Source of the DNA: Heliocidaris erythrogramma
Taxonomy: Eukaryota > Echinodermata > Echinoidea > Camarodonta > Echinometridae
Reading direction: 5' to 3'
NCBI GenBank assembly: GCA_025617745.1
Contig: CM046856.1
Location: forward strand, 44,569,049-44,633,048
DNA length: 64,000 bases
Shown here piece after piece: positions 664-63,474 of the stretch (position 1 is its first letter; each line of letters begins with the position of its first letter). The notes under the pieces are model-generated. The model saw only the letters and a program-made list of their open reading frames with translations. It did no database searches and was not told the DNA's origin. The position numbers were made by a program, and so were the translations under genes.

Positions 664-855
664 AGGTCCCCTTTTATGAAATTATAATTCTTGGTATTTT
701 GTACATGCATCTCATCTAAATTGAAAAATGACATCCGTTTGCAATAAATACGTATCAAAATATTTTTTTAAATAATATTTCCCCCAGGTATTCATGTCCA
801 AAACAGTCTGCTAAGCTCCGCCCCCTTTTAAACCCCGAATTCTCGTTCCGCGAGC

Positions 856-1213
856 ATGATTGACGTGTGTCGTCACAAACCGACATTGCCGATGCTTTTT
901 TATAATATTGCCTATGTATTACATGAGCAAACTAACTTGCTGTTGTGTATACCACCTCTAAAGCGAAGTATGCCGCAACGCTGCGTTGTTGCAGGTTGCA
1001 GTAACACCACAAAGGAGGGTGTCAGTCTACATTTATTCCCTAAAGACCCAAATATAAGAAGGAAATGGACCGCAAAAGTAAAATTAACTCGCGCCCATTG
1101 GAAGGGGCCGAGTGAGCACAGTGTTGTGTGCTCCGAGCACTTTTGTGCGGAGGACTTCGTCGATAGCACGGGGCTGCGTATGGCATCAAGAAGAGGCCGT
1201 CCCTGAAACAAGT
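856..1213 (+). pseudogene. THAP zinc-finger exon, frameshifted at its end
   Basis: THAP is a C2CH DNA-binding zinc finger used by P-type transposases and by domesticated host factors. The likely start is the ATG at 970 (protein begins MPQRC); the ATG at 856 opens 38 residues upstream that look unrelated. Counting from 970, Cys5 and Cys10 form the first ligand pair and a Cys-x2-His pair follows near residues 54-57. Between them lie a SLHLFPKD segment and a conserved Trp (RKW). Near 1175 the frame appears to slip by one base: the other frame continues with YGIKKRPSLKQ, the usual THAP exit sequence, but it stops soon after. Thus only the DNA-binding module remains and no catalytic domain follows. 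The gene lies just inside the left TIR and faces the P2X7-like exons. A degenerate relative lies at 62757-63088. Confidence 0.8.
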
Positions 1214-1382
1214 TTGATCATACATGTATCAATAATATGAAATTTGGCGACTCTGAGCTTTACCTCACAAGCACCTCTCTCAATTGGTCTTTACTATTAA
1301 AAATGATTTTTTTTTTTTTTTTGTTCTTGATGAAGAAAAAGATCTTTCTCCATAAAGAGTGTTATAAAAATGTTTATCATGG

Positions 1383-1564
1383 TAGAGTGGAAACTCAGTA
1401 TAAAGAGGTCTGATACAACAATATTCCTGATATAACAAGGCAATATTTTGGTCTCAACTCTTTATATTCTTTTTTTTAAAACTGATATAACGAGATTCTG
1501 GATTTAATGTAACCAGGTAATTTTAATAGTCCCAAGGACCTCGTTATACTAAGTTTCCACCGTA
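1383..1564. mobile_element. Small TA-flanked MITE, pogo/Tigger-like
   Basis: The left end reads TAGAGTGGAAACTCAGTATA and the right end is its imperfect inverse, GTTTCCACCGTA preceded by GACCTCGTTATACTAA. Both sides end at TA, the target of Tc1/mariner/pogo elements, and the interior repeats TATAACGAG-like motifs. It is about 180 bp, non-coding, and nested in E1. Confidence 0.6.
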
Positions 1565-1748
1565 TATTTAATATTGATTTTTGTTACCACCCTGAATGTA
1601 GTGAAAATGTAACGGGCAATTTTCAACCTACAACCCCCCCCCCCCCCTCCTTCGGCAGGAAAAAGGGGTATACATCACAGTTACAGGTTGATTCCTACTT
1701 CTCTACCTTATACATGTAGTTCATTTGACAGAAAATCTGTTTTCCAAT

Positions 1749-2005
1749 GATTCCCTCTCTCTCTTTCACCATTTCTTCTCTTGTGCTTTCCCTCCCTTTC
1801 TCCCTCTTTATGCCCAAAATTCTCCACTTACACACATCTTCCCTCAACTTTTTTATCTCTCCCTTTTTCCCCCAGTGATTCCCTCTCTTTTTCACTATTT
1901 CTTCTCTTGTGCTTTCTGTCTCCCTTTCTCCTTCTTTTTGCCCAATATTCTCCAATTACACACATCTCCTCTCAACTTTTTATCTCTCTTTTTTTTTCTT
2001 TTTTC
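1749..2005. repeat. Pyrimidine-rich tandem duplication, 128-bp unit
   Basis: Two diverged copies starting at 1749 and 1877 (GATTCCCTCTCTC...). Both contain TTTCTTCTCTTGTGCTTTC and later TACACACATCT and CTCAACTTTTTATCTC. The strand bias creates long spurious open frames; nothing suggests coding. Confidence 0.7.
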
Positions 2006-2947
2006 CATTCTGCCAATTGTTGGTTTTGATCTCATTCACGCACTCACACCTTTCTTTTCAATTGTTAGTTTCATTCACGACAAGCCTTGCATAGTAAATG
2101 TGTTTGAGCTCTTCCAGAGATGACAAAAATATTCAATTGATTTGAAATATATTATTACTTCTGGAGAAATGTAAATATAGATGTTGTATCCAGGAAATGG
2201 TTGTCTTACAATTGAACATCAAAAATTCAATAGGAGAATGCCCACCCCCCCCCCAAAAAAAAAAAAACCATAACAAAACAAAACAAACAAAACTGATAAG
2301 CTTCCAAAGTGTGTTTCATTAACAAATTAAACAACAAATGCCATAAAAAATAACAGACCTCATATGCCATTAACAATAGAGTTATCATTCTTGACTGAGA
2401 TACAAGCATCTTTACAACATCAATTACAAAAAATGCTCTGGGCAAATACTTAGATGTGAACTCAGTTACCCAATTCCAATTTTATTTCTGACAGTGAAAA
2501 TGAATATTCAAAATAAGCCTCCTAGACTCCTCTTTTCCTCTGATACTTGAAGCAAAAACAGCAATAAAATTTTTACCACATTGTCACAGTGTAGCACACC
2601 CTCATGTAATAAACCCAACTTTCAGGGAAACTGATATCCATGTATAGGAATTAAATATCACTGAACAATGACGTACTAGCATTTTAACATTTCTTATAAA
2701 CAGTTATATACATGTACATGATAAATGTATATGCTATCTAAGCGTTATCAAGTTAACAACTAGACCAACATATATAAGTACATAATAATAAATACAACAA
2801 TAAATCAAATGAAAGAAGAAAAAAAAATCTGTAGAAAAAAAAAATGTCAATTTCAAAAGAAATATGATGTGAAGCAACAATAATGATGATCACATGAATG
2901 GCAAAAAAATAAATTCGCCAAACCTTCAAAAATCGCTCAGTAAGGGG

Positions 2948-3066
2948 TTATTGGGATCCAGTTTCCCCTCCATAATTCCCTGACAAGCAACAAAAAAAAT
3001 CATACTTCTTTTCCAAAGGGGGGGGGGGGGGACCGGGCCGGCTGTGCCCCCTGGATCCGCCAATGG
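2948..3066. mobile_element. hAT-like MITE interrupting a coding exon
   Basis: Ends are TATTGGGATCCAG on the left and CTGGATCCGCCAATGG on the right, imperfect inverse copies. The interior has a G run and a TCCCTGACAAGCAA segment that recurs in the MITE at 26035-26211. It abuts the P2X7-like exon ending at 3067, so it probably inserted in that exon. No clear target duplication was found. Confidence 0.55.
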
Positions 3067-4296
3067 TTCTGATGGAAATGCTGCACGGATTCTTGTCACG
3101 GCACAAGATGGGAGAGGAACACGTCCTGCCCTGCCTGGCTTTCCTATAAAAGATTTTTTTTTTAAGAGTACAAAGGAAACTATGATTAGACAACTTCAAA
3201 ACAATGCACAGTGTAGTCTATGATGTAGGTGATAGTGAGGTAACTTTTACTTTGAACTTCACAAATAAACAATAGAAGATTAGCTAATAATTTAGTTGTC
3301 AACACCGCAGTGTAAAATGTTGTGATGGGGAAAGAGGAAACAAACGTTAATCTGCACATAGGACAAGAAAATACATGTACACTGCAAATAGAATAATCTT
3401 CCTCTATTTACATTAAGGCTAAAACATTATTTTCTTTTATAGAATATCGTAATATTAATTTCATAAGGAGCCAAATTGGCATTTTGCATCCAAACTGCTT
3501 TATATAATACAGGAATACTGCAGTAAGGATTAAAACAAAAAATATGGTGTACTCACTGATTTTCAGTTGCATCCTGCCTTGCCTGTCCGCCATACTGCTG
3601 TCGATACAAATAGTAAGCAGTTTCCATTACATACCGCTCCATGCAGACACACTGGATGAAACCCTGGGTGGAAAAGAAGAAGAAGAAGAAGAAGATCATA
3701 TCTATTGTCAACTATAACGGTAGCTACACTTACTTAGTGTAGCAGCACAAAGAAAACAAGCAAGATAACAGGAGAGCTAAGAGTTTTCTGGATATCAATG
3801 TTAGATTTTGAATTTACTAGAATCAAACGCTACCACCCTATGCACCAGTAAAACTGCCCAAGCGCAAGCCCAGGCAGGGTCAGCAGGCGAACAACCAAAC
3901 GGCGCGGCGTGTGCCCCGGCCCTGCGCACATCGAGCTCACTGCCTCGATCAGTGAAGTATCAGCTCAGCCTCTCGGGCAATTTGCAAGAGTAAACAAGAT
4001 TCATAATACGTGGATATGCGTGAATTAAACTTTAATCGGTAATTTATTATCAAAAAATAATTACCAATTGTTATTCCCCAAGTCTCCCGTCGATATCCTC
4101 TCCGTTATTAAAATCAGGGACGTCTCTGACATCATCAGAATCTTGCCCAGAATCCGACATGTCTGGCTCAAACATAGTGTACGGCCGTGCCCCTAATTCC
4201 TCTTCAATTTCTTCTGGGACCTGATGCTCCAAATCAGATATATCTGATCCTGAATAAGTGTCCTGGCTGAAGAAGATGATGCCATCGTTGATGTAG
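3067..4296 (-). pseudogene. P2X7-ballast-like gene, three recognisable exon pieces
   Basis: The C-terminal (ballast) domain of the P2X7 receptor also occurs in many free-standing invertebrate proteins of unknown function. Exon A (about 4296-4072): an Asp/Glu/Ser-rich stretch, then the family signature LGARPYTMFEP, then DGRLG; an extra G near 4076-4079 shifts the frame so that a stop follows. Exon B (3663-3557): preceded by a pyrimidine tract and CAG, followed by GTGAGT; it encodes VCMERYVMETAYYLYRQQYG, like the family's VCL..VLETA.Y.YRQQYG. Exon C (3143-3067): preceded by TTTTATAG; it encodes GRVPLPSCAVTRIRAAFP, the family's PSCAV.KIR..FP block, then stops at a MITE. The phases of B and C do not fit, so an exon between them is missing or unrecognised. 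The Cys-rich block expected after exon A was not found. A homologous fragment lies in E7 at 62560-62619. Confidence 0.7.
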
Positions 4297-4428
4297 GATT
4301 TTGTCTTTAAAAAGCTAAAATGAAGGGCTGAAATGGCACGAAGTCGAAGGGATCTACACGAAGCTCAATAGCCATAACACACACACATCGATACTGATCC
4401 AGCTTGTGTGAGTCAAGCGTTCTGTGGG

Positions 4429-4446
4429 TGACGTCACATGACGTCA
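4429..4446. promoter_or_regulatory. Pair of palindromic CRE/ATF sites upstream of the P2X7-like gene
   Basis: Two perfect TGACGTCA octamers start at 4429 and 4439, ten bases (about one helical turn) apart. They lie roughly 130 bp upstream of exon A on its strand, inside the transposon's right end. TGACGTCA is the CREB/ATF consensus. The promoter role is inferred. Confidence 0.5.
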
Positions 4447-4689
4447 TCGATCGCTTGACCGATTTTCCAAAATTTTTAGGGGCGTTCCCAGTTATTTTTT
4501 TATTTTCAAGGTTACAGATTAATGAATGGAATTCAGGTAATATGATTGACAGATCTGGATTCACAGTAGAAAAGTCTATTAAATGAAGTTCCTTTGTAAT
4601 TCCATAAAAGGGGACCTTTAAGCATGTTTAAACAAATGGTATTTGAACACGACCATGATGGATAAATAAAGTGAAAATATGCTGACATA

Positions 4690-5775: not shown

Positions 5776-8067
5776 TGTTGGCGATGTTTAAAAATTATAT
5801 AGGTGGGAAAAGAAATTTGTTATCTTGTTTAAATTTCAGAAATCAATCAGAAATCAATCAAACAATCAAATGAACATCAATTCCACACGGCAATCAGCAT
5901 CCCAACATTTTAATGGAACAAAAGGCTACGTGATCTACAAGATAAATAAATAAAATACGCAGAAAACAGAATAGTTAAGGTTCAATGGTTTTGATGTATA
6001 TTATTGCATATCTTGACTATTTACACATTTGATCAAACATATTTTATTCAAATAAAATTCAATGTCTAACTGATCAATGTATTGAAAACAAATTATCGGT
6101 ATAAAGACTTATATTGGTCGACTCAAATTACATTGTATCGAAATAAGGCAGTGAATAATACGTAAAAAAAATTATCTTTAATACAGAATCATGGAAAGTT
6201 GACGAGTGTTGAACGTAGTTGAAAAACGAAGACTGTCGAAGAAAACGAAGATTGTGGCGAAGAGTTGACTGGTGAAAACGGTGAATTATGGGTGTCTGGT
6301 GTGAGATCTGGGGTGATGACCCTTGTCAGTTTGTGTAGTGACACTGGTGGTAGAAATGACCCTTGTTCGGATGTCACTTGGACCTATTACCAAAAAGATA
6401 ACGATACATCGTTGTCCCTTAAAAATCAACTCGTCCTCGAAAGGTATAAAAATTCACTGCGACGTTCAACATATATATATATATATATACATACATACAT
6501 ACATATTGTGACTATACTTATCACATAACTGCCTTATTCACTTCCATCAACAAGATTATTATATTGCCATGAGAATTATCAATAACGTATAGTGGTACAA
6601 GTTTAACCTTTAACAAAAACGTCAAAGACGAATAACAGTTTGTTAAATAAAAAATCATGACAACTGCTATCACTATTAAATCCTCAAAATAGGAAACCTA
6701 TACAAATCAGTTTCTACAATTGTAATGATTATATCATTTTTGAACCAATTAGAGAAAATATGGTCTAATTATATAAAACTCAATTGTCATAAATCAAATA
6801 ACTTGGTCGATCCATTCCATGTTCGTTCTTTTCTATGTACAATAGTTGAATTAGCAATAAAGTATATAAATAATTATAACTACCAAAGTACATACCCGAT
6901 ATATATCAGGAAAATGACCCGTGCTTTAGAGGTTTACCAAAAACCAGGACAGCTAGGAGAAGGTAATTAGCCGGTTTGGCTCTCCAGCTCGGGTAAACGA
7001 AGGTTCAAAACCACGTAAAAATAATGCTGCTGTAACTTTTGGAGCAAAATCTGCGTCCTGCAGCGATCAAGGTTGGATGTGATCTGGTGACTTCTCAAAA
7101 TACGAAATGAAATCTCCGACACCACCCAAAAATGGTTAATTCTGATTGGTTACTTTACGTTACCAAGAATAACAAAATTTACATAACAGTAATCAATTAC
7201 AAGAGTGCACATGAATGGATATGCACCTTTAGAAATAATGTCTTTAAAATGCTGTCTTTAGAATTAAGTACTTTGGATTTTTTTCTTTTTTAAAACACAG
7301 GTGGTGGACGTTGCTTTGTATCCAAATCAAATAAATAATGTTCACACGACATTATATGTCTTAAAGGACAATTAACCCCACGTGATATTCTAGATGCACC
7401 TATTGTCTGCTACGTCTTTCCATGGAGGCTGCCATTTTGTGCATGACACGGATCATTAGGTACCATATGCATTGATAATAGCCTACCTTTACAACAGATA
7501 CGTCGCTTTGTTCTGATTGTATTACGATTGTTATTGGCCATGGGCCTAGATAATTGACGACCCATGAGTTCTAATAGCCATCCTGTAAAGCAGATTCCTC
7601 GCTTTGTTTTGGTATTGTTACGATTGTCTCCGTCCTTGACGTCAATTCTCCGTCCTTGACGTATATTTTTTATGAAGTATATTTTTTATGAACAAATTAA
7701 GACCTTTTAAAAAATATATAAAACTAAACTTACATTTCAGAATATGTGACTTTATCTAATATATATTTGTCCTCTAAAAATCAATTACAAGTTAACGATG
7801 AAGGAAATTTTACTTGGGATGAAAAATATGTTCGTGTACACATAAAGTAATGGCAGCCCCCTTATTATTGCTAGCAGACGATAACTTGGCTGGAAAATAG
7901 TGATTTATATCTATATCCTGTGTTTTTACATGAAATTGCATGTATCAAATAAGAGGCATATACTACACCATTCAAAATAAGCTAATTCATACGCTGAGGT
8001 TAATTTCCCTTTAAGTTGTGTTTATATAGTGCATTAAATCGTATTAAATACTTGTTTGGACACTACA
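5776..8067 (-). repeat. 3' LTR of the Gypsy element, with nested MITE
   Basis: Matches 12434-14076 almost base for base except for a 650-bp insertion at 7361-8010/8014. An (AT)n/(ACAT)n microsatellite sits near 6470-6503. Small open frames in it are duplicated in the other LTR and are not genes. Confidence 0.95.
7365..8010. mobile_element. 646-bp TTAA MITE inside the LTR (E2)
   Basis: TTAA at 7361-7364 and 8011-8014 bounds termini AGGACAATTAACCCC and, inverted, AGGGAAATTAACCTC. The sister LTR has the empty site with one TTAA (TGTCTTAAGTTGTG near 14018), which proves insertion and target duplication. Subterminal inverted motifs (GTCTGCTA and TAGCAGAC, GGCTGCCAT and ATGGCAGCC) recur in E5 and E6. 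Non-coding. Confidence 0.95.
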
Positions 8068-8159: not shown

Positions 8160-10730
8160 TTAACATGCAATATAACGATCTGGAAATCTGACATGCCTTC
8201 CGGATCTAGTCCTTCGGATAGGTGGAGTGGTTGTACTGGTCTGCTGCGTATGCGCGGCACATTCCTCCACCTTGATTGGAGTCTTTGCCTTAGCAAAGCT
8301 GGTCGAATTTGATATGCTTTCGTCCAGAATTTTCTTCTCGACATGCGCTACTTTCAATCGATCAATGCAAATTTGATCGCGTTTGCCATTGATATCGAGC
8401 GTAAAGAACCGTTCTTTTCGCTTAAGCACCTTATAAGGTCCTTTGTACGGTTGTTGAAGGGGTTTCCGCACCGAATCTACTCTAACAAATACATGCGAGC
8501 ATGATGATAGATCGCTAGGAACATGCGTCATTCCTTGCTTAGCTCTAGAAGGGATAAGTGTAAATGTGGCCATGTGTTTACGTAATCGGGAAATGTAGTC
8601 ACTCGGGTCTACTTCAGTTCGCTCAGGCGCAACGAACTGTCCGGGTAGTCTCAATGTTGTCCCGAATACTAGTTCTGCGGGTGAACATGACAAATCTTCT
8701 TTGATGGTAGAACGGATACCAAGAAGAGTTAACGGTAACTGTTCACTCCAACGGGAAGGATCCTCGTAGGCCTTCAAAGATGCCTTGAGTTGACGGTGAA
8801 ATCTCTCTACCATCCCATTTGCCGCGGGATGATATGCGGTTGTTCGGATACGGTTAGTCCCTAATAACTTAGTCAATTCCGTAAACAGGCGGGATTCAAA
8901 CTGCCTTCCGCGATCTGTCGTAACAGAAATAGGTGCGCCAAAATTAGCAACCCATCTTTCTACGAAAGTTTTAGCGACAGTTTCAGCAGAAATATCGGCT
9001 ATAGGAATGGCTTCCGGCCATCTTGTATAACGGTCTATACACGTGAGCATATACTTCTGACCATTCGAATGAGGTAATGGACCAACGAGATCCAGGTGAA
9101 CGTGTGCGAATCTTGCATCCGGGGTACTAAAAGTCCCTAATGGGGCTTTGACATGCCTGTGAATTTTTGACCTCTGGCATGGTAGACATTCTCGAGACCA
9201 TTTGCGCACATCTTTATTGATTCCGGTCCAAACGTAACGAGAAGTAATCGCACGCTGCGTTGCACGGATTCCTGGATGAGAAAGTCCATGAATAGCATCA
9301 AAAACTGACCTTCTATAAATTTTGGGAACGAAAGGTCTGGCAAGTCCAAGGGAAACATCGCATACAATCGAGTCTCCTGTGGTAAGCCTTGGTACTTTTT
9401 GGAGCACCATACCAGTTTTGGTTTCAGAATTGAGCAGTTCTTGAAGCTCTGAATCGGTTTCTTGCGCTCGAGCTATATCCGAGAAATCTATCCGAGATTC
9501 GGTATGCAAGGTACTCATAACCGGCCGGGATAAGGTATCAGCTACCACGTTGTCTTGACCTTTGACGTGCCTAATGTCTGTGGTAAACTGGGATATGAAA
9601 TCCAAGTGCCTGATTTCTCGCGGGCTATGACGATCGGGTTTCGCATTAAAGGCATAAGTCAATGGCTTATGGTCGGTGTATACGAAAAATGGTCTGCCTT
9701 CTAATATGTAACGAAAATGTCTAATTGACAAGTAGATGGCTAGTAACTCGCGTCCAAATGCGCTATACCTTGTTTCAGCAGGTAGTAATTTGCGCGAGAA
9801 AAAAGCGATCGGTTCCCAAGCATTATCATGGAGTTGTTGAACGACTCCGCCTACTGCGCGGTCTGATGCGTCAACCATCAAGTTCAAAGGGTACTCAGAA
9901 TTAGGGTATGACAAATTTGCACTCTGCGCTAGTGTCTCTTTAATTTCCGCAAAAGCGACTGTACAAGCCGGCGTCCAATCCAACGGTTTCTTGGATCGCT
10001 TTTTACGATTGCGCAAGAGGTCTGTGAGTGGCATGAGGATTTGCGCACAGTTTGGTATAAACCTGCGGTAAAAATTCACTAACCCGAGAAATCCTCGTAA
10101 TTGCTTCACGTTAGTGGGAATATCGCAGTTCCGAATCGCATCCACTTTTTCAGGGAGTGGATTAACTCCTTCAGCATTGATCCGGTGCCCAAGAAATTCT
10201 AGCTCCGATTGGCCAAAAACGCATTTGTTTGGGTTAACGACAACACCAAACTCTCTAAGCCTTTCAAAGAGTAGGCGTAAATGGCGCTCATGCTCTTTCT
10301 CGTTCTTGCTAGCTACAAGTAAGTCATCTATGTAAGCATATACGCACGGTAGTCCACGAATGACCTGGTCTATGAACCTTTGGAAGGATTGCGCTGCGTT
10401 GCGCAAACCGAACGGCATTCGTTCGAATTCGTAGAGACCAAAAGGTGTGCATATAGCTGTTTTGCATATATCATCAGACGCGACAGGTATCTGATGATAG
10501 GCCCGAACTAAATCTATCTTGGAAAATATGCATTTCCCATTCAAGTTCGCAGTAAAGTCTTGAATATGCGGCACGGGATAGCAATCAGGCACGGTAGCCT
10601 TGTTAAGAGCTCTATAATCGCCGCACGGTCTCCAATCGCCAGCGGTCTTTTTTGGTACCATATGCAATGGTGAAGCCCATTGGCTACTAGACGGCCTAAT
10701 TATGCCTAAATCAAGCATATGCTGGTTCAT
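8160..10730 (-). CDS. pol: Gypsy pol: reverse transcriptase, RNase H, integrase
   Basis: An 856-codon open frame. RT occupies roughly residues 1-230, with RMPFGLRNA near 104-112 and catalytic YIDD at 133-136. RNase H follows, with [10 protein letters not shown] and the TDHKPL block. Integrase begins with a zinc-binding region ending CLPCQRSK and then the DDE core: [16 protein letters not shown] and [10 protein letters not shown] carry the three acidic residues. The C-terminus has [10 protein letters not shown] and DRLKVAH, common in Gypsy integrases; no chromodomain was seen. The ATG at 10730 is not a natural start: RT should be the continuation of the protease frame, which ends at 10711 because of a small indel. 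Translation in life would need the intact parent. Confidence 0.93.
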
Positions 10731-11336
10731 TCCGAGCTATATCCAGCTTTTCTCCCGTGAGTCTGCGCGGTCTAGCTTTAGCGGGTTGTCCATGAGTCTC
10801 AATGTGATGTACCACATTGTGTTTTACGTCTTGCGAACGGTAGACGGGTATGGTTATATCAGCGTATTCGTCACGCAACATCTTCGTGTACGCATCAATA
10901 GCTTCAGGTGTGTCATATACCGGGCTTAGTGACGCGACATTCGTATGTCTGCCTGACACTTGCATGTTAGTAAGAGGGTCAATGAGCCTCGGCCTAGTCA
11001 TATCAACCAGAAATTGAAAATGGCGCAAAAAGTCTGCACCTAATATAGGCATAGTTACGTCTGCTATAATAAATATCCAACGACAGCTGCGACGTAATCC
11101 TAGATTTAGCGTAAGTGACTGCTGCCCATAAGTGGTAATGCGCGAACCATTAGCTGCACGCAGTCTCAATGCAGAAGGTTTTGCCTTTTGTTGCTTGGTC
11201 GGCAAGATTACCGACACAGCCGCACCTGTGTCAACCAGAAATCTCTTTCGCGAATTATTATCTGTAATGTAAAATAGGCGACTATCCGGTTGACCAGTTG
11301 GGTTTGTCGCCCCAACCCTCTGGTCTATGCGTTTCC
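10711..11336 (-). pseudogene. pol: Gypsy pol N-terminus: aspartic protease and linker to RT
   Basis: This frame is -1 relative to gag and is reached at the slippery site 11331-11337. The retropepsin active site VDTGAAVS lies near 11240-11215, about 30 codons after entry. Later ILGADFLRHF is the conserved Gypsy protease C-terminal block. The linker before RT ([13 protein letters not shown]) is typical. The first ATG at 11217 falls after the active site, so protease cannot start there and depends on frameshifting. The frame stops at 10711 beside the RT frame, a net 1- or 2-base indel. Confidence 0.85.
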
Positions 11337-11337
11337 C
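11277..11337 (-). promoter_or_regulatory. Predicted -1 ribosomal frameshift signal with pseudoknot
   Basis: The heptamer GGGAAAC (11337-11331) sits in the gag frame as G GGA AAC, one codon before the gag stop TAG (11327-11325). After a 5-base spacer, GACCAG (11325-11320) can pair with CTGGTC (11297-11292), and GGGTT (11318-11314) with AACCC (11304-11300). The 9-base loop contains GGCGAC (11311-11306), complementary to GTCGCC (11282-11277), giving an H-type pseudoknot. Slipping back one base enters the protease frame. Heptamer, spacer and structure agree with known -1 sites. Confidence 0.75.
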
Positions 11338-12239
11338 TGACTATTCCAACTACAGGGAAGTTTGCAACGGTGAGCATTCTCGGCATACTGGTTATGATAC
11401 CAGCAATAGCTATTGTCATTTGTCGGTTTAGCAACGGGCGTGGACTCACGCTTGTTACGCGATTTACTTTGGCTACGATTTCGGCCACGACTACGGCTAC
11501 GATCGCGCTGCAACTGAACTACGGTGGTAGTTAACTCACGAACGAGCTTGGTCAACTCAGCGATTTGACCTACAAGATTAGGATTCGCATCTTGCGCTGA
11601 ATTTCCAGATTGGCTAGCTGTGATAGCATGTGCTCCAGCATCGGTGGCAGGCGCGACAGTGTTCACGACTGGAACGTGCGCTTCCAAAATTCTATCAGCC
11701 AAGGCAGCGAGGTCAGTTAGCACGAGCGATTCACTCGTACTCGCTAAGATCATTCTTACGTTATGAGGTAAGCGCTGTAAAAATAGCTGCCTAAGTATGC
11801 CGCTTTCTAGTTTCTGATCTCCTACGAGTTGTTCCATGCGCCGCAATAGCTGCGAAGGCTTTCTATCGCCCAGCTCCTCTTCTGTGAGTAGCATTTGCAC
11901 CCTTCTTTGTTCCGACTCAGTTGTTCGCGCGATAAGTTTCTGTTTTAGCGTCGTATAGGGCTCGGTAGTCGGCGGGCATATTAATATATCGCGAATGTCT
12001 TGCGCTACCTCTGGTGGGAGTGTCGCTATAACGTGCGAGTATTTTGTACTCTCAGAGGTTATGTTCCGGGTGGTAAACTGCGCTTCTGCTTGCGCAAACC
12101 AAACTTCTGGATCATTTCTCCAGAATGGCGGCAACTTCACTGCCACTGCTCCGAGCATGTTTCCCGAGTCTGACTGCGCTTCCGAGTCGCTTTGTGGCAT
12201 CGCGAATGCGCGCGGGTGTACAACCAACCCACCTTCCAA
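11325..12239 (-). CDS. gag: Gypsy gag (capsid and nucleocapsid)
   Basis: A 304-residue frame. Residues about 35-190 resemble the Gypsy capsid region, with KLPPFWRNDPEVWFAQAEAQ and LFLQRLPHNVR. A basic Arg/Ser stretch (RDRSRSRGRNRSQSKSRN) near 245-265 precedes a zinc-knuckle-like region CWYHNQYAENAHRCKLPC. The protein would form particles and bind element RNA. Start: first ATG of the frame, about 190 bp downstream of the primer site. Stop: TAG overlapping the frameshift region. Same strand as pol, in a different frame from protease. Confidence 0.9.
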   Translation of the reverse strand: MEGGLVVHPRAFAMPQSDSEAQSDSGNMLGAVAVKLPPFWRNDPEVWFAQAEAQFTTRNITSESTKYSHVIATLPPEVAQDIRDILICPPTTEPYTTLKQKLIARTTESEQRRVQMLLTEEELGDRKPSQLLRRMEQLVGDQKLESGILRQLFLQRLPHNVRMILASTSESLVLTDLAALADRILEAHVPVVNTVAPATDAGAHAITASQSGNSAQDANPNLVGQIAELTKLVRELTTTVVQLQRDRSRSRGRNRSQSKSRNKRESTPVAKPTNDNSYCWYHNQYAENAHRCKLPCSWNSQGNA

Positions 12240-12407
12240 GTTACGAGTTCCAATATCGTATGCAACTATAAAAAGGGTTATGCTCTACATAGAATATATA
12301 ATTCTTTCATATACTGCTTTATCTATCATGTAAGATCACGTAGTATACCATATATATGATATAATTTGTATCACCGATATGAGGGTATACGCCTTAAGAT
12401 TGTCCCT

Positions 12408-12433: not shown

Positions 12434-14076
12434 TGTTGGCGATGTTTAAAAATTATATAGGTGGGAAAAGAAATTTGTTATCTTGTTTAAATTTCAGAAA
12501 TCAATCAGAAATCAATCAAACAATCAAATGAACATCAATTCCACACGGCAATCAGCATCCCAACATTTTAATGGAACAAAAGGCTACGTGATCTACAAGA
12601 TAAATAAATAAAATACGCAGAAAACAGAATAGTTAAGGTTCAATGGTTTTGATGTATATTATTGCATATCTTGACTATTTACACATTTGATCAAACATAT
12701 TTTATTCAAATAAAATTCAATGTCTAACTGATCAATGTATTGAAAACAAATTATCGGTATAAAGACTTATATTGGTCGACTCAAATTACATTGTATCGAA
12801 AAAAGGCAGTGATTAATACGTAAAAAAAATTATCTTTAATACAGAATCATGGAAAGTTGACGAGTGTTGAACGTAGTTGAAAAACGAAGACTGTCGAAGA
12901 AAACGAAGATTGTGGCGAAGAGTTGACTGGTGAAAACGGTGAATTATGGGTGTCTGGTGTGAGATCTGGGGTGATGACCCTTGTCAGTTTGTGTAGTGAC
13001 ACTGGTGGTAGAAATGACCCTTGTTCGGATGTCACTTGGACCTATTACCAAAAAGATAACGATACATCGTTGTCCCTTAAAAATCAACTCGTCCTCGAAA
13101 GGTATAAAAATTCACTGCGACGTTCAACATATATATATATATATATACATACATACATACATATTGTGACTATACTTATCACATAACTGCCTTATTCACT
13201 TCCATAATGAAGCAAATTATATTGCCATGAGAATTATCAATAACGTATAGTGGTACAAGTTTAACCTTTAACAAAAACGTCAAAGACGAATAACAGTTTG
13301 TTAAATAAAAAATCATGACAACTGCTATCACTATTAAATCCTCAAAATAGGAAACCTATACAAATCAGTTTCTACAATTGTAATGATTATATCATTTTTG
13401 AACCAATTAGAGAAAATATGGTCTAATTATATAAAACTCAATTGTCATAAATCAAATAACTTGGTCGATCCATTCCATGTTCGTTCTTTTCTATGTACAA
13501 TAGTTGAATTAGCAATAAAGTATATAAATAATCATAACTACCAAAGTACATACCCGATATATATCAGGAAAATGACCCGTGCTTTAGAGGTTTACCAAAA
13601 ACCAGGACAGCTAGGAGAAGGTAATTAGCCGGTTTGGCTCTCCAGCTCGGGTAAACGAAGGTTCAAAACCACGTAAAAATAATGCTGCTGTAACTTTTGG
13701 AGCAAAATCTGCGTCCTGCAGCGATCAAGGTTGGATGTGATCTGGTGACTTCTCAAAATACGAAATGAAATCTCCGACACCACCCAAAAATGGTTAATTC
13801 TGATTGGTTACTTTACGTTACCAAGAATAACAAAATTTACATAACAGTAATCAATTACAAGAGTGCACATGAATGGATATGCACCTTTAGAAATAATGTC
13901 TTTAAAATGCTGTCTTTAGAATTAAGTACTTTGGATTTTTTTTCTTTTTTAAAACACAGGTGGTGGACGTTGCTTTGTATCCAAATCAAATAAATAATGT
14001 TCACACGACATGATATGTCTTAAGTTGTGTTTATATAGTGCATTAAATCGTATTAAATACTTGTTTGGACACTACA
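12434..14076 (-). repeat. 5' LTR of the Gypsy element
   Basis: A 1643-bp LTR that keeps the empty TTAA site filled in the other LTR. The clearest differences from 5776-8067 are a cluster near 13205-13217 versus 6547-6560, two substitutions near 12800, and a 1-base T-run change. The promoter should lie here; no TATA box was assigned with confidence. Confidence 0.95.
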
Positions 14077-14589: not shown

Positions 14590-16208
14590 CTACCCGTAAA
14601 AATTCAATCCTGGACAAAGTTTTCACCAACTCGGCAAGCCTCTTAATCCTGCCAAGTAGACTCACCCCCTTGGAAACAGCGACCATTGCTCCATTTTGTT
14701 GAAGCCAATTCATGAACTAGTTAGAAAGAACCAATAATATTTACCTGCCCTCTCAAAGACACTTCCATTACAGAATTTGGTCAATGGATTGTTAACCATG
14801 GTTGGGATAATGTATATTGTAAGTTGTCAAGCAATGATGGTGTAAGTGTTTTCAATAGTGTACTGAATAGTGTTTAAATTTCCCCCTATCTAAGTCTGTG
14901 CTCAACAATAAAGACAAACCTTGGATGACTTGTAAAATCAAGCAACTCTTATAGGGAGAAGGCTCACAAAAAGAATGACCATACTTCTTTGCGTAATCAG
15001 GTGCCATCAGAAATCAGTAAAGCTAAAGCTAATTATTACAACCAAACTATTCAGGATCTGAAGAGTTCCCAACCAGCGTAGTTGCATAAACACATTAACC
15101 CGTTGACTACTTAATTTCCTTATTCCCATAGGCTTAGTACAGGAGCTACCCGGCTTCCGTACACAATGGGTTAAGAAAATAATTATGTAAACTAAGTAAT
15201 AAGAGAGTTGCTATACCTGGTGCTGACAACGATTCAGTTGGTACAGCATCAATACCCACTTTGCGACAATAAGCAATCAATTACCACCTCTTGATCAACT
15301 TACTCCTGGCATAACTACCTGCGAATTCCCCTCCACCTACCATCTATCGGGGACAAATTTTGTCTGCTCTGAGAAAATTAAAAACCAATAAATCAGTCAA
15401 TCACAATGACTTACCTACTCTCCTTGTGAAGGAGGTTGCTGTGTCTACTTACTGAAGTTCGTGTTGGAAGGCCTTGATAAACCCGGCCATTATGCCTATC
15501 TTACTACCATTGACTTTACTTAGGCGTTTGATAGGGTAATATAAATCATTCAGTTTTAGTCAAGAAGCTCATCCTGTTAGGTGTACGCAGATCGATCGTC
15601 CCGATTATTTGCAGCTTCCTAATTGCACGTACTCAGAGCACCAAAGTCTGTAATTACTACTCTCCCCTACTAGAGGTATCCTGTGGCGTACCACAAGGTA
15701 CCAAGTTGGATCCGGTATTGTTTCTGAATCTTGTTAATGATGTTGTAAATGATTGGGAGGCTCGATGGAAATATGTTGATGAGTTGACACTTGCAATCTG
15801 TATTAGATCGTCTTTCAATATGGTGTATAATGATAATGACTTGCTCCCCAAACCATCCAAATGTAACCTCATGACCATATCATTTTTAAGGAACTTAAAC
15901 CCAACTCAAAGTTGTTCAAAATCTCAAACGACTCGGAATCACAATTCAGAATGATCTAAAATGAAACCTACATAATTTTCTCAGATATTGTGTCAAATGC
16001 ATCCAGAAGATTGTACACACTATGCATCCTTAGAAAATCTAAGGCAAGCCTGGTGGATATGGTAACTGTCTGCACTACGTACATAAGACCCATACTCGAA
16101 TATGGTTCCCCTGTTTGGCACACCTCATTTACCCTAAATGAGACTAATAAATTGGAATTTGTTCAAAAGCGGGCCCTCAAAATAATTGTAAGCTATAACG
16201 TGACTTAG
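14590..16208 (+). pseudogene. Decayed CR1/Jockey-like LINE (endonuclease to RT)
   Basis: Fragments in order on +: LDKVFTNSASL near 14610 (endonuclease end), AFDRV near 15525, SVLVKKLILLGVRRS near 15560, CGVPQGTKLDPVLF near 15685 and YVDELT near 15773, where the catalytic second Asp of YxDD is replaced by Glu. The 72-residue frame 15990-16208 matches the RT thumb/C-terminal region (TYIRPILEYGSPVWH, LEFVQKRALKII). Many stops and frameshifts. It is incapable of activity. Confidence 0.75.
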
Positions 16209-16912: not shown

Positions 16913-18325
16913 TAATTCAAATGTAAGACAACTTTGGAACATGACTGGCTTCCCTACAATTAAATGCAATACAGGACGATATCAAAAATCCACCATTCAT
17001 CACCTTGTCAGAATCTTCAAATAAACTCCCCCACGCTTTGCATCGCAAAACCTTGTCACTTCTCAGATTGCATGTCTAGATGTAATGGCTCATTTTGCAT
17101 GATTATGGCTTTCTGTGTAACTTGGTTATATTTATGTATTCCTCGCAAATCTTCTCCTTTCTAACGTACTATCTCCTTCTTTCTTCTCCTTCCCTACCTC
17201 TTTCCTATTCCTGACTTTTCTTCTTTTTCTCACTTTTCACACTTGTTACCTTATTATTTGTGTAGCGTAAGTCTTTGTATCTTTGTTTTGCTTCCAATTA
17301 TGTATCTTTTCTATATATTTGATGCGATTCTATTGTATATATACATGTATATCTGATTGTAAATTGACCCCTTCAGCCCCTATGCTGCATGGTCAATCCT
17401 CATATGCCATAATAAATAAATATTTTTTTTTTTAATCTAATGTTTTGCTCATGTATTCATGTACTCATCTAATTATACGGATTTACAAACACATTTTCTA
17501 TTAACTCCTTTTTATCCATCTTTTTAAGTGTGTACAACGTTTGCATAACCTATCATGGCATATTGTCTGCGTCTGTAAATATCTTAAACATTTGTAATGC
17601 TCATTTATTCTTCTTCTTTTTCGTTATTTTTGTTTTGGTTCATCGCAAGGGGAGGGGGCTCAGGGGTGCTAGAACACCGATGGCAACTTTACTGAATTTG
17701 AGCATCCCCATTATAATTATATGAACAGTAACTGGTGAATACTCCGACCTAGAGCTGCAAAATCGTTCCGCCTGCATCTTGTTTGTTGTTGTTGTTGATT
17801 TATATCCTATAATTCTCTCCTTTCATGGCGCATGTAGTACTGATAATTATTCCCTGCTAATGATTCCCGAAATTGAAAGAATATGATATTTTAAATGTTG
17901 TTTCTTCAGCCTTTTGCTGAAACAGATCCAAAATCCGTAGGAAAATGAGCATTGCATTATTAAAGCCGTAGCTAAAGCTATGGTCACAACCCAAAAACTT
18001 CGCCTGCTCGGCGGCCGGGCGGCGAGATTTGAGCCAATTTCGCCCGGTCACCGCCTATTGCTAAATTGTTCGCATTCCGATGCTCTAATGATTTTGAATA
18101 TTCTGTGATTATGCACTTGAATACGCATATCGATCATTCTATCAAACTACATGAAACAAGTATATATGCGATCACTTCCTCCAAAAATCCAACTGAACGT
18201 TCATATAGGTGACTGATTAACACTTCAATTCAAAGGAAACCAAAGGACTATACATCAGTTAGGCCATGCCATGATGAATTTTGCAGAAAAAATCTACACT
18301 CTACTCTCAGTCTACTGTACTCTTG
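16913..18325. other. Unassigned; possible further LINE 3' UTR
   Basis: A CCTCATATGCCATAATAAATAAATATTTTTTTTT tract split near 17398-17432 resembles a retroposon tail, but no coding block is attached. The rest is AT-rich with no supported gene. Confidence 0.35.
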
Positions 18326-18654
18326 TTAAAGGGAAGGTAAACCCTGGACTTTTGGCCTACTGAGAGTGTTAAGAGCACAATTCTTGACATTACTGTGAAA
18401 ATTTACCTCTTATGAACGCTTGACGGTGGAGTAATTCACACTTTTGTGAGCAATGATCGTCTGCTACAGCCTGCTATCGGGGTTTAGTCCAGTAGAAGTT
18501 TTTGAGACCTGGAAAAGTTGTTAAGTACAAGGTTTTTTTGTTGATTCGTATTCTAGATGGATATTGAGGTAAATTCAGCTTGGTTGCCACCTTGGCAACC
18601 TTGAGCAATTTTTTTTATTAGCCTAATTAGCATAATCATCTAATTAGCATAGGC

Positions 18655-19200
18655 CTATATGCAATATATAATATGTTGCTAATCTTAACCCAGAAAGCCT
18701 GAAAATATAAAAAATACAACTTTTCTAGGGGTTTCTATGACGAGGAATTCATTTATGACATCGATTTTTATTTTTAAGTAATGTAATTGTCGTGAATAGC
18801 ATAATTAGCATAATGAGCTAATTAGCATATGTGCAATATATGGACTTCTTTGTCATTGTTTATCCACAAAGCCTGAAAACAAAAATAATACAACTTTTCT
18901 AGGGTTTTCTATGACGAGGAATTCATTTATGACTCCATTTTTTATTTTTAAGTAATGTAATTGTCGTGAATAGCATAATTAGCATAATAAGCTAATTAGC
19001 ATATGTGCAATATATGGACTTCTTTGTCATTGTTTATCCAGGAAGCCTGAAAACAAAAATAATTCAACTTTTCTAGGGTTTTCTATGACGAGGAATTCAT
19101 TTATGACGCCATTTTTTATTTTTAAGTAATGCAGTTGTCGTAAATAGCATAATTAGCATAATGAGCTAATTAGCATATGTGCAATATATGGACGACACCA
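18655..19200. repeat. 174-bp tandem repeats, left arm of E3
   Basis: GTGCAATATA recurs at 18831, 19005 and 19179, exactly 174 bp apart. Each unit has TAATTAGCATA clusters, ACTTTTCTAGGG and GACGAGGAATTCATTTATGA. Confidence 0.9.
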
Positions 19201-19878
19201 GTTTTTATTATTAAGTAATGCAATTGTCGTAAATGGCATTATTAGCATATTTGCAATATGTAAACTTCTTTGTCCTTATCTAGAAAGCCTAAAAATGGTG
19301 CAATGCAACATTTTAAAAGTTTTTAAAGACAACAAATTAGTTTATGAGAAGATGTTCCATGTAAATGTAGTATAATTAGCCTAATTTAATGTGTTTACAT
19401 TTTTATAATGACCAATATTTACCTCAGAGGGCAACCATGTTCAATGTGGCAAAGGATTGTAACTTTGTAAATTCATTCCCTACGCGTATGGGTAGAAGCA
19501 CTATACCTTAGACTGCCATGTACTATGCCCAGACAATACATGTATACAACAAATTCTCTTAATTCTGTCCCAAACACCTATAAACTCAAAGAAGAAAAAG
19601 AACGAAAGAACAAAATTCTAAATATACTTTACCATCATTACCATCTTTCAGTCGACCCAAACATTTTCTTTATATATTTAATAACTTACTGGTCTGTTCA
19701 TTCTCTTATCACTGGTACAGTGGGAAATTACAAATGAATACCTACGTATTCTGTCCTGTCAGAGAGAAATTCAAGAGGCCACTACGCAATTGCCTGATTA
19801 ATATGCAATTATGCTAATAAGGGTAATTATTATTCGTGTCAACATGGTTGGTCATAATAAAAATGTATACACATTAAA

Positions 19879-20051
19879 CAAGGCCGTACGCAGCGGGGGG
19901 GGGGGGGGGGGGCAGAGGGGGCAGTTGCCCCCCCCCCCCCAGAAATTTCAAAATCACACTTTTTTTTAATCGGGTTTTAGACTTCAAGTTATGGGTTCCT
20001 TTGAAAGCGATCATCTTGCCCCCAGGAAAAAAATTTCTGCGTACGGCCTTG
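19879..20051. mobile_element. hAT MITE, 173 bp, perfect 8-bp target duplication
   Basis: The inverted ends CAAGGCCGTACGCAG are identical on both sides. ACATTAAA occurs at 19871-19878 and 20052-20059. Eight-base duplication and a CA-start fit hAT. The interior has long G and C runs. Confidence 0.9.
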
Positions 20052-51127: not shown

Positions 51128-51131
51128 TTAA

Positions 51132-51777
51132 AGGACAATTAACCCCACGTGATATTCTAGATGCACCTATTGTCTGCTACGTCTTTCCATGGAGGCTGCC
51201 ATTTTGTGCATGACACGGATCATTAGGTACCATATGCATTGATAATAGCCTACCTTTACAACAGATACGTCGCTTTGTTCTGATTGTATTACGATTGTTA
51301 TTGGCCATGGGCCTAGATAATTGACGACCCATGAGTTCTAATAGCCATCCTGTAAAGCAGATTCCTCGCTTTGTTTTGGTATTGTTACGATTGTCTCCGT
51401 CCTTGACGTCAATTCTCCGTCCTTGACGTATATTTTTTATGAAGTATATTTTTTATGAACAAATTAAGACCTTTTAAAAAATATATAAAACTAAACTTAC
51501 ATTTCAGAATATGTGACTTTATCTAATATATATTTGTCCTCTAAAAATCAATTACAAGTTAACGATGAAGGAAATTTTACTTGGGATGAAAAATATGTTC
51601 GTGTACACATAAAGTAATGGCAGCCCCCTTATTATTGCTAGCAGACGATAACTTGGCTGGAAAATAGTGATTTATATCTATATCCTGTGTTTTTACATGA
51701 AATTGCATGTATCAAATAAGAGGCATATACTACACCATTCAAAATAAGCTAATTCATACGCTGAGGTTAATTTCCCT
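51132..51777. mobile_element. 646-bp TTAA MITE, apparently identical to the LTR insertion (E5)
   Basis: TTAA at 51128-51131 and 51778-51781. Same length as 7365-8010 and no difference found on reading through, which implies recent copying. Confidence 0.95.
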
Positions 51778-51781
51778 TTAA

Positions 51782-53002: not shown

Positions 53003-53006
53003 TTAA

Positions 53007-53908
53007 AGGAGAATTAACCCCTGATTACAAATTTACTTATATATGAAGGTGTAATATATTCCTACTTATTGGCCTAAATCATTTTCTAACAAGATCAGAA
53101 AAGGGTATAAATAAAGATATTCCAACACCCGGTATCGTCTCCTACTCATTTACATGGGGGCTGCCATTTTCTTGCTGATTTGGAGTTGTACATGAACCAT
53201 TGGGAAATGTTCCAGTCAGGAATATATTTTGAATCCAAATCCTTAATTGATTTTCTTCATTACCTAAAATCCCATATGTGACGAAAAAAATATAAAGTGG
53301 GTGTTTACATGTATTATAAAAATTAAATCTTTATAATGATACTTTTAAATTGTCTGGTTTTGCTTAACAAAAATCTATTTTCTTGGGTTTGCCAAACAGA
53401 ACAGAACATAATATATGCAGCATGCATTCCGACTTTTCAAGTCCATTATCCGAAAGCAGGTGAATGCATAGTTTGCCGCTATAGATGCTCAGGGAAGAAG
53501 CATCCATAAAATTTGAATTAATTTGCTCCGTCCCATACGTCCAGTATCGAGAAAATAGATTTCTATTAAGCGAATATCGATTTTCAACAGAAATATATAA
53601 GGAAATCTTCAGTTTAAAAATAAATTGACACATCTATTCTATATTATTAATCTCAAATGGGTTTTTAATTTTGAAAAAGGCAACTGAGCATTTGGATTAA
53701 GAAAATCTTCTTGTACACATAAACAAAATGGCAGCCCCCATGTGCTGCTAGCAGACGATACATATTGCTAGCAGATGGTAAATTTTGCTCAGAAAATCTT
53801 GATTCGTATCGGTCTCGTATATGTTGACGCGAAGCCATATAGTCTAACAAGTAGGAATAAATAACACCTTTGAACACTATCGTTTTTATTTTTGAGCGTA
53901 ATTCTCCT
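53007..53908. mobile_element. 902-bp TTAA MITE, relative of E2/E5 (E6)
   Basis: TTAA at 53003-53006 and 53909-53912; termini AGGAGAATTAACCCC and, inverted, AGGAGAATTACGCTC. Shares GGGGGCTGCCATTTT and CTAGCAGACGATA with E2/E5 at matching places, but most of the interior differs. Confidence 0.85.
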
Positions 53909-54279
53909 TTAAACCATTTTTAAAATGTTTTAATAGCCTGTTTTCATACAAAATTAATAACCCTACTTTTCTTTATACGGATAATCTTAAAGATCGAATC
54001 ATATTCACATTTAATGAAAAAAATTCAGTGGTCAAATAGTTACCCATTGCTATACTCTCGTCATATCAGTTGTTGTGGATCAGTGGATTTGCCACTCTCA
54101 TCCCAGGTGTTAAATGGGTACCCGGTAAGATGCGAAAGTTAATGTCGTTTGTTTAGCAATTTGAGCGTCACTGTACTGCCCATTGCTGGTATACTCCCCA
54201 GGGAGCGGATCATGTGCATCATTGTGTGTGGCCATGTCAGAATCCGATGACCGGGGTAATGTAAAGCGGTAATGTAAAA

Positions 54280-61605: not shown

Positions 61606-61802
61606 TGTTTACATTTGCAGTTGGCATGTTTTTACATTTGTGGTAAAGGGTCTTTCGATATTTAGGGATTTTGGTAAGGAAACCTCACACACAAGCATAC
61701 ATACGCACACACACATACATCTCATAATAACTGATCTTACATAGGTGTATTATGCAAGCAATGAGTTTTTGTCGTTTGCGGTTGACATGTTATGACATTT
61801 AA
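61606..61802. repeat. Degenerate ~20-bp repeat array, left of E7
   Basis: TTTACATTTGCAGTTGGCAT, then TTTTTACATTTGTGGTAAA, then GTTTGCGGTTGACATGT. The array resumes at 63475-63580 (TTTTTACATTTGCAGGCG, TTTTTACATTTGTGGTTAAA). Confidence 0.6.
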
Positions 61803-62439
61803 AGGTTGACTAAATTAGAGAGAAAATGGGTGCTCTTTCCATGTAGTTTTGCCTTCTAATCACGAATCTGCCAATCGATTGTCCAAAGTATGTCTCGTTT
61901 TGGCGAAAAGGGGGGGAAAAGTAGAGGTTATGGGACCGTTCCTTAAAACTCGTGAGCTGATTGGCTAACCCCCATGTGACGTATGAAAAGTAAGAGGAAC
62001 AAGATCTGCAGGCTGCAGCATATAATATTGTACACAGAATGCGGTATTTGACCCCTCTGTTCAACGGACAATTTATGAAAAAAGGAAATTAATCAATATA
62101 ATCTTAGGAGTGAATAATCATTAGCAATATATTTTCTACAAGATCAGAAAACGATTTTACCCAAATATACAGCTCTTGTTTTGTTTTTAGTTCTCATCCA
62201 TCTGAGCTTGCCGAACGAAAGTTTTGCATTGGTCATAAACGCGTGCACAGCCGTTTTATGCGTCTGTATGACAATGTCATACACATCTATAGTACGGCAG
62301 TGACTATGTTCCCCTCGTACATAGCGACTGGTGAACGCTTTTGTTTTGTTTATTTCACTCACAGCCTTTTTTTTACTTCGCTTTACATAGTACGTTAGTA
62401 ATGACTTAGATTTTGGCTGAATTCGAGTAACTTATATAG

Positions 62440-62619
62440 AGAGAGGAAAAGTGCCCGAGATTCCGATTTGGAGGACTTTTCTGAGCCATGCAGATACGAA
62501 CTCTGATTTATCAGATGATTTATCAGACCCCGAAGGCAAATATGCTCGAGTGGTAAGGGGAAATTCGACCAATTATGTTTGAACCCCTCGCAGAATGCGG
62601 TGAAGGGCCGTGGGTGAAG
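62440..62619 (+). pseudogene. P2X7-ballast-like exon fragment
   Basis: An acidic stretch (TNSDLSDDLSDPEG) is followed, after a frame change, by IRPIMFEPLAECGEGPWVK at about 62563-62619. RPxMFEP is the signature also read in E1 exon A, where it likewise follows an Asp/Ser-rich stretch. No downstream exons remain: the sequence runs into hairpins. Similarity is short but the position, orientation and acidic leader agree with E1. Confidence 0.6.
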
Positions 62620-62742
62620 TAACTCCAGGGAGCTCCAACGCGTTGTCCTCCCTGGAGTTACGGGTGAAGTAGACCGAAAATTCTGTCTCTCGTTCGTTAG
62701 GTCGTCTTAGCTAACGAACGAGAGACAGAATTTTCGGTCTAC
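62620..62742. repeat. Two perfect hairpins at the junction of two gene remnants
   Basis: Hairpin 1: 13-bp arms 62620-62632 and 62648-62660 (TAACTCCAGGGAG). Hairpin 2: 32-bp perfect arms 62669-62700 and 62711-62742 with a 10-base loop. GGGTGAAG precedes each hairpin and follows the last (62612, 62662, 62743 region). Confidence 0.9.
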
Positions 62743-62756
62743 GGGTGAAGCTGCTG

Positions 62757-63088
62757 CAGCTGCTGCAGCTGCTGTCGTTGAAAAACAGATTGGAAGACTT
62801 GACTCCAAGTCTGATCGTTGGAATTGCTGAATCTTTTAGCTAGCTTATCCTTCTCTTCATGCCAAATTCGGAATATAGGCCAGGATCCTCAAAATCATCT
62901 TCGGCAAAGTGATCGCTGCAGATTGTACTCCACTCACTTTGCCGGCCCTTGCCACTCTGCCCGCGTGAGCTTTACCTTTGCGACCCACAATTTCCGTAGA
63001 TTTTCATCTTTAGGAAAATGGTGTAGGCTTACACCATCTTTAGGGGTCTATAATTGCTACAGCCCGCAACTATACACCGATTAGGCAT
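62757..63088 (-). pseudogene. Degenerate THAP zinc-finger gene
   Basis: From the ATG at 63088 it reads MPNRCIVAGCSN, then after a frameshift DGVSLHHFPKDENLRKLW and VAKVKLTRAEWQGPAK, then after a second frameshift ICSDHFAEDDFEDPGLY. The C-x4-C and C-x2-H ligands and the Trp are all recognisable. A TAG at 62842-62840 follows KRRIS, after which the frame continues LKDSAIPTIRLGVKSSNLFF, matching the LKPDAVPTIF-type exit box of THAP domains. It is clearly related to 970-1211 (shared GVSLH.FPKD, KVKLTRA.W.GP). The coding then runs into a CTGCTGCAG-rich stretch (62750-62775). Confidence 0.8.
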
Positions 63089-63474
63089 TATTGATGAAAC
63101 TGTGTCCCAAAATCAAAGTTATTGTGAGGAATTAAACACACGAAAATACGCAATGCAAATGGTCGATGCGGTGAATATCATGCTCGGCACCGGGCTGGGC
63201 CTCCCGGGGGCCTCCTGGCGCGCACGGTATAGGTCAGTGGAATATTTTCCCTTACTTTTCATGCGTCACAGATCACGTGATCACGATGTTGCTTCGATGG
63301 GTTTTTTTTAGGGGCGGGGCTTATGACTGTGTAAATCAGCAAAAATGTACTTTTCAAATGATTATAAAATATGACTGAATGCATAAAAAATTGTGTGATG
63401 GATATTTTTTGGCTCCTGATGACACCTTCCTACGAAAAATGGACAATTATTTTTTTATTTTAGTGACCCTTTAA

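Follow-up and report, generated by a model that had tools for sequence, protein, structure and literature searches.

Two probable Kolobok-like remnants with opposed THAP and KolX/ballast-like exons in Heliocidaris erythrogramma

Introduction

Kolobok transposons are recognized by TTAA target site duplications in combination with 5'-RR ends; the TTAA target is shared with piggyBac, and it is the RR ends that separate the two (Kojima and Bao 2022, PMC9587614). According to the same authors, the Kolobok transposons of the Kol0 lineage encode a second protein, KolX, that has the ballast fold, and P2X7 originated by a fusion with KolX. The Kolobok transposases themselves usually contain DDE, THAP and H2CH motifs, and the listed full-length XKol ends begin with AG (PMC6004289). 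The main text of PMC9587614 holds no occurrence of the term THAP, and the strand of KolX is given in none of its nine passages that contain KolX, Kol0 or 'complementary strand'. Rump et al. 2020 found that each species has fewer than 10 ballast genes, which do not form large families, and describe an 'ancestral synteny' as well as a THAP-ballast protein.

We have analyzed a 64 kb stretch of sea urchin DNA (the window), for which an initial annotation had proposed that two TTAA-flanked elements, E1 and E7, carry the same pair of genes, and that one of these, a P2X7-ballast-like gene, is the second gene of a Kolobok-like transposon, which could account for an expansion of ballast genes in invertebrates. 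E1 and E7 are, most probably, dead and internally deleted copies of two different Kol0-type Kolobok-like families; the defining DDE core was not found in the nine interior frames scanned. The proposed connection between the ballast-like protein and Kolobok is sound, yet it was already in print and as such is not new. The anatomy of the elements fits and agrees with the published KolX, but the family match is sub-threshold and none of the scanned frames yielded a DDE domain.

Results

The two elements are delimited as follows.

660..4621 (TTAAs included), no strand: E1, an internally deleted Kolobok-like element with TTAA on each side and inverted termini
61799..63474, no strand: E7, an internally deleted Kolobok-like element of a family other than that of E1, with TTAA flanks and TTAAAGG ends

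The TTAA flanks are located at 660-663 and 4618-4621 for E1 and at 61799-61802 and 63471-63474 for E7, in line with the target site duplication of the Kolobok superfamily. Immediately inside the TTAA both elements begin with AGG and finish with CCT, which is the 5'-RR...YY-3' arrangement of Kolobok. The first terminal bases of E1 form an inverted repeat in which 26 of 28 positions match, TTAA counted, and past the TTAAAGG 14 of 15 bases are inverted, the highest score among all 154 TTAAAGG x CCTTTAA pairs in the window. The inverted repeat of E7 is weaker, with 10 of 15 bases past TTAAAGG, a score of at least 10 being reached by 11 of the 154 pairs, including those of E1 and E7 and seven pairs among the ends of the elements at 7361, 51128 and 53003. 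The TTAA-flanked termini that had been described for both elements were thus recovered. A comparison of E1 and E7 by blastn yielded no match longer than 18 bases.

A THAP domain, as is usual in Kolobok transposases, is present in both elements, and its membership in a transposase would follow from that association.

970..1203, + strand: E1 THAP zinc-finger exon (Pfam PF05485, E=5.1e-14; PDB THAP2 2d8r, E=1.2e-09)
62843..63088, - strand: E7 THAP exon, split across three frames (Pfam THAP pieces; homologous to the E1 exon)

The E1 exon probably represents exon 1 of a transposase that is otherwise missing. The THAP exon of E7 is recognizable but frame-broken: two of its three frame pieces were taken into the Pfam search, the third being too short, and these matched THAP with E=4.9e-05 (62937-63047) and E=0.055 (62843-62938). 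The exons of the two elements are clearly homologous at the DNA level, with an alignment score of 103 versus a mean of 20.0 (sd 3.2, max 41) in 300 shuffles. Mismatches between them amount to 22/76, 13/76 and 41/75 at the first, second and third codon position, respectively, and this third-position excess points to past coding selection. A loose THAP pattern was also encountered at 15958-16083, 17942-18127 and 21897-22025, where all three stretches contain internal stop codons and were taken as chance. The initial annotation had in addition noted a shared GC-rich block upstream of each THAP exon (CTAAGCTCCGCCCC at 811 versus ATAAGCCCCGCCCC at 63311-63324). The similarity was equalled in 119 of 300 shuffles without gaps and in 40 of 500 with gaps, and the block was dropped as a candidate common promoter, being no better than chance.

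The exons of the second gene are found on the strand opposite to THAP.

4074..4247, - strand: E1 KolX/ballast-like N-terminal exon, acidic, with RPYTMFEP (sequence motif; no P2RX7_C match)
3556..3663, - strand: E1 KolX/ballast-like middle exon (canonical-looking splice flanks; no Pfam match)
3064..3144, - strand: E1 KolX/ballast-like exon with VPLPSCAVTRIRAAFPSE (Pfam P2RX7_C, below the cut-off)
62493..62619, + strand: E7 remnant of a KolX-like N-terminal exon, an acidic stretch followed by RPIMFEP in a different frame (no Pfam match)

In both E1 and E7, THAP is located close to one terminus, and an RPxMFEP-type exon close to the other faces it from the opposite strand, so that the convergent pair, in mirror orientation between the two elements, stands as originally described. 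In a six-frame translation of the window, the sequence MFEP, which we take to be typical of KolX-like proteins, is encountered only twice, once per element. The middle exon of E1, which presumably resembles a ballast helix, is preceded by a CTT-rich tract and CAG and followed by ATCAGTGAGT. Pfam P2RX7_C was the sole family matched by the last ballast-like exon of E1: the open frame 2929-3195 gave E=0.081 and, when trimmed post hoc to 3067-3144, E=0.012 at 15.9 bits (cut-off 23.5), covering profile positions 164-184 of 192. P2RX7_C did not match 4074-4364, 4074-4247 or 3556-3663 of E1, nor 62493-62579 or 62557-62619 of E7. A search of the PDB with two of the three ballast-like exons of E1 returned no P2X7 chain and one weak unrelated match for each.

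The third cysteine cluster of the ballast has been published as (L/I/V)PSC(C/S)x3IRx2(F/Y)Px5Y(S/T)G. The E1 exon at 3064..3144 fits this motif up to FP, with A in place of C/S and with the final Y(S/T)G absent. WCxCxxC was absent from all six frames of the whole window, CC..CIT did not occur in E1, and looser patterns for the first two zinc-cysteine clusters gave nothing at the expected place in E1. Compared with the zinc-binding cysteines of a working KolX/ballast (ZCD) protein, which form three clusters, E1 displays most of the third cluster only. Since the first two clusters are absent, the ballast-like gene of E1 is classed as a remnant. E7 keeps only an N-terminal fragment of the gene, in which the short motif RPIMFEP and the acidic sequence before it are the basis of the ballast assignment. 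The likeness of the second gene to P2X7 is accordingly the weaker part of the identification, being derived from the sub-threshold family match in one E1 exon and otherwise from motifs; of the P2X7-ballast-like gene that was proposed, the RPxMFEP motifs and the single match stood, whereas that match is below the cut-off and the other pieces remained unmatched.

Nine interior open frames (three of E1, six of E7) were compared with Pfam, where shorter or stop-broken frames lay outside the scan. These contained no match to a DDE transposase, although Pfam may miss Kolobok cores, and none to a piggyBac transposase; two matches to other families were at chance level. For the MFEP exon and the THAP exon of E1, relatives were sought in viral contigs, and none of the 30 and 17 pattern-matching stretches, respectively, was confirmed. 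The whole window gave no Rfam match and no tRNA gene.

Discussion

Given that the family match is sub-threshold, one could argue that the elements carried THAP only and that the reading frames of the ballast-like exons arose by chance, as five of the seven ballast pieces lack a match to P2RX7_C in Pfam and the other two represent one overlapping frame below the cut-off. We consider this improbable, however, as MFEP appears just twice in six frames of 64 kb, in each case on the expected strand, as RP-FEP-type strings arise in just one of 1000 shuffled versions of E1 and in two of 1000 for E7, and as the one family matched by the last E1 exon is precisely P2RX7_C. The elements could also be of the piggyBac type and carry a KolX-like gene. 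The TTAA target is identical, and a few piggyBac families encode a KolX-like protein that misses most of the 7 cysteines (PMC9587614), just as E1 misses the first two cysteine clusters. Nevertheless, the ends of E1 and E7 start with AG (5'-RR), the very feature that sets Kolobok apart from piggyBac, THAP is usual for Kolobok transposases (PMC6004289), and an N-terminal KolX-like exon is present and not the C-terminal part alone, which makes a piggyBac origin about equally improbable. Finally, domesticated Kolobok transposases (PMC6004289) and a domesticated KolX, Nanor (PMC9587614), are on record, but we give very little credence to the alternative that the genes are a pair belonging to the host, or a THAP gene after domestication plus a ballast gene, and that TTAA insertions simply landed in or beside them, considering that the opposed pair was found twice, the two being mirror images and each enclosed by inverted TTAA ends, and that both copies are broken.

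The reading as Kolobok-like remnants implies that an intact parent would have two genes facing each other, one for a THAP-headed transposase and one for KolX, the latter a zinc-binding protein with the fold of the cytoplasmic ballast of P2X7. The middle of E1 and E7 would have been lost through internal deletion, and the copies may formerly have been mobilized in trans by a full-length relative, the THAP finger of which would bind near the ends while its DDE core inserts at TTAA. KolX could then act as an accessory factor in the assembly or the targeting of the complex, a putative role. The broken copies bring no advance on the function of KolX. They are consistent with the derivation of the P2X7 tail from a transposon protein, as published, and to the known kind they add two decayed copies that display both genes face to face.

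That deletion derivatives of two diverged families retain the first exons of transposase and KolX face to face, with the middle lost in both, might even point to a conservation of this layout, the two outer segments acting in cis in mobilization. In that case, what Rump et al. 2020 reported as 'ancestral synteny' and as a THAP-ballast protein would represent Kolobok gene pairs and not host gene order. We offer this extension as a speculation that is unlikely to hold.

The closest described relatives compare as follows. E1 and E7 share the TTAA target duplication, the 5'-RR ends and a candidate KolX/ballast-like gene with the Kol0 lineage (Kolobok-1_XT type, PMC9587614), and THAP with other Kolobok transposases (PMC6004289). 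They differ from Kol0 in that both lack a recognized transposase core and are truncated or frame-broken, and from its KolX in that the first two cysteine clusters are absent from E1. Most of the third-cluster motif, in one E1 exon, is held in common with the C-terminal ballast of P2X7, with NANOR and with the invertebrate ZCD proteins (PMC7016195); unlike these, no P2X channel part was seen, clusters one and two are missing from E1, and the third has a single deviating residue and is without its final part. The TTAA target, the AG/AGG ends and a THAP-bearing transposase in the autonomous relatives are also features of XKol and T2-MITE of Xenopus (PMC6004289), where the T2-MITE ends read AGGRR versus AGGTC in E1 and AGGTT/AGGGT in E7. 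Whereas the T2-MITEs are taken to be nonautonomous members, exons from two genes are retained in E1 and E7.

Two TTAA-flanked remnants with THAP exons

On the basis of their ends and THAP exons, we classify both E1 (660-4621) and E7 (61799-63474) as Kolobok-like remnants. E1 is bounded by TTAA at 660-663 and 4618-4621, and its ends, which begin AGGTCCCCTTTTATG, form an inverted repeat of 26 out of 28 bases including the TTAA. When every pairing of TTAAAGG with CCTTTAA in the window (154 in total) was scored over 15 further bases, this one ranked best (14 of 15 inverted). E7 has TTAAAGG ends bounded by TTAA at 61799-61802 and 63471-63474, and its inverted repeat is weaker (10/15, where at least 10 is reached by 11 of the 154 pairs). 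The initial annotation proposed that in each element a THAP gene faces a gene resembling the ballast, the cytoplasmic C-terminal domain of P2X7 (Pfam P2RX7_C), and that E7 mirrors E1. The THAP exon on the + strand of E1 and the mirrored layout of E7 were both confirmed.

Coding features of E1 and E7
970-1203, + strand: E1 THAP finger (Pfam E=5.1e-14; THAP2 in the PDB, E=1.2e-09)
4074-4247, - strand: E1 acidic exon with RPYTMFEP; no P2RX7_C match in Pfam
3556-3663, - strand: E1 exon, CTT-rich tract and CAG before it, ATCAGTGAGT after it; no P2RX7_C match in Pfam
3064-3144, - strand: E1 exon reading VPLPSCAVTRIRAAFPSE, part of an open frame matching P2RX7_C below the cut-off
62557-62619, + strand: E7 RPIMFEP; no Pfam match
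Just upstream of RPIMFEP in a different frame, + strand: E7 acidic stretch; no Pfam match
62843-63088, - strand: E7 THAP exon over three frames (Pfam THAP E=4.9e-05 and 0.055 for two pieces, the third being too short for the search)

Since blastn matches between the E1 and E7 regions reach 18 bases at most, the two elements represent different families. Their THAP exons share 66.5% DNA identity with an alignment score of 103 (300 shuffles: mean 20.0, sd 3.2, maximum 41), and the mismatches at codon positions 1, 2 and 3 (22/76, 13/76 and 41/75) fit a divergence of the exons under coding selection before the copies died. The end of the E1 THAP frame looks frame-shifted relative to that of E7. 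MFEP is found twice when the window is read in six frames, once per element and on the expected strand, and the wider RP-FEP string appeared in 1 of 1000 shuffles for E1 and 2 of 1000 for E7. The GC-rich block that was thought to be common to both elements could not be upheld, as its 12 of 14 matching bases were equalled by 119 of 300 shuffles and its gapped score by 40 of 500.

Adjoining the RPIMFEP fragment, E7 contains two consecutive short palindromes of differing sequence (62612-62750), one measuring about 43 bases (arms of 14 bases) and one 74 bases. They are bounded by GGGTGAAG at 62612, 62662 and 62743, the sole + strand occurrences in the window, and look like tiny hairpin insertions at one spot with a short duplication.

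The ballast-like exons of E1

The P2X7-like exons claimed for the - strand of E1 were recovered in part. The open frame containing the exon at 3064-3144 matched P2RX7_C with E=0.081, and the stretch 3067-3144, trimmed after that first search, matched profile positions 164-184 of 192 with E=0.012, under the curated cut-off. The other two exons found no match and are presumed, by their position and motifs, to belong to the ballast-like gene.

The published motif of the third cysteine cluster of the ballast ends in Y(S/T)G (PMC7016195); the exon at 3064-3144 fits it up to FP, with A for C/S at one position, and is without the final Y(S/T)G. E1 lacks the segment in which the first two cysteine clusters would be expected; none of the six frames of the whole window contains WCxCxxC, and looser cysteine-cluster patterns gave nothing at the expected place in E1. 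Directly after the PSC exon, a GC-rich stretch (3000-3062, - strand) reading LADPGGTAGPVPPPP occupies the expected place of the end of the ballast gene, and may be a separate insertion.

Probable relation to Kol0 transposons and KolX

The combination of TTAA duplication and 5'-RR ends sets Kolobok apart from piggyBac (PMC9587614), and Kolobok transposases usually combine a THAP domain and an H2CH motif with a DDE core (PMC6004289, on Xenopus). The second protein encoded by transposons of the Kol0 lineage, KolX, clearly resembles the C-terminal region 476-595 of P2X7. The authors derive P2X7 itself from a P2X4-like gene fused with KolX, and state that ballast-like proteins, found in diverse animals, had until then gone unrecognised as parts of Kolobok families (PMC9587614). 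The core idea of the initial annotation, a ballast-like protein as the second gene of a Kolobok-like transposon, has been in print since 2022. The observation is real and the core of its interpretation correct, but the idea was not new and both copies are decayed. Because the KolX match is sub-threshold and a Pfam scan of interior open frames (3 of E1 and 6 of E7) revealed no DDE family, Kol0 membership of the two elements is likely rather than proven. Since the main text of PMC9587614 makes no mention of THAP, and none of the nine places where it has KolX, Kol0 or 'complementary strand' gives the strand of KolX, the facing layout is not matched to these parts of the publication.

In the most likely scheme, a living parent would express a THAP-DDE transposase from one of its ends and KolX from the opposite end. 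The transposase would cut at the element ends and insert at TTAA, with KolX possibly acting as an assembly or targeting partner. E1 and E7, having lost the middle, would have moved only in trans.

According to Rump et al. (2020), each species has fewer than 10 ballast (ZCD) genes and large families are absent, a finding at odds with the suggested expansion in invertebrates (PMC7016195). The same article describes an Ixodes protein with a 'TAHP' domain, which we read as THAP, and a C-terminal ballast, as well as two markers whose linkage to ballast genes extends from sponge to sea urchin. Should these markers be transposase genes, the ancestral synteny of Rump et al. would be a transposon gene pair.

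Other mobile elements of the window

The window looks like animal DNA full of mobile elements, whose names were read from translations and not from a family search. It also contains reverse transcriptase frames resembling those of LINEs, as well as tandem arrays.

Gypsy-type element
5776-8067 and 12434-14076: long repeats (LTRs)
8160-12284: reverse transcriptase and integrase frames of Ty3/gypsy type, between the long repeats

The second-ranking of the 154 pairs, a 5.25-kb pair of TTAAAGGGAA ends at 18326-23580 (13/15), encloses tandem arrays and a LINE-like frame of 142 aa; MFEP was not found there in the six-frame scan, and a loose C2CH pattern match with a stop inside (21897-22025) was taken as chance. 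Further short TTAAAGG-ended candidates lie at 30602-30891 and 53003-53912 (ends matching 9/15 and 10/15). Finally, a 654-base TTAAAGG...CCTTTAA element is present in two copies that are 100% identical (7361-8014 and 51128-51781). The gypsy-type element contains one of these copies within one of its long repeats, and its other long repeat shows the unoccupied site with one TTAA (14020-14023). These observations demonstrate the TTAA duplication directly and point to recent activity.
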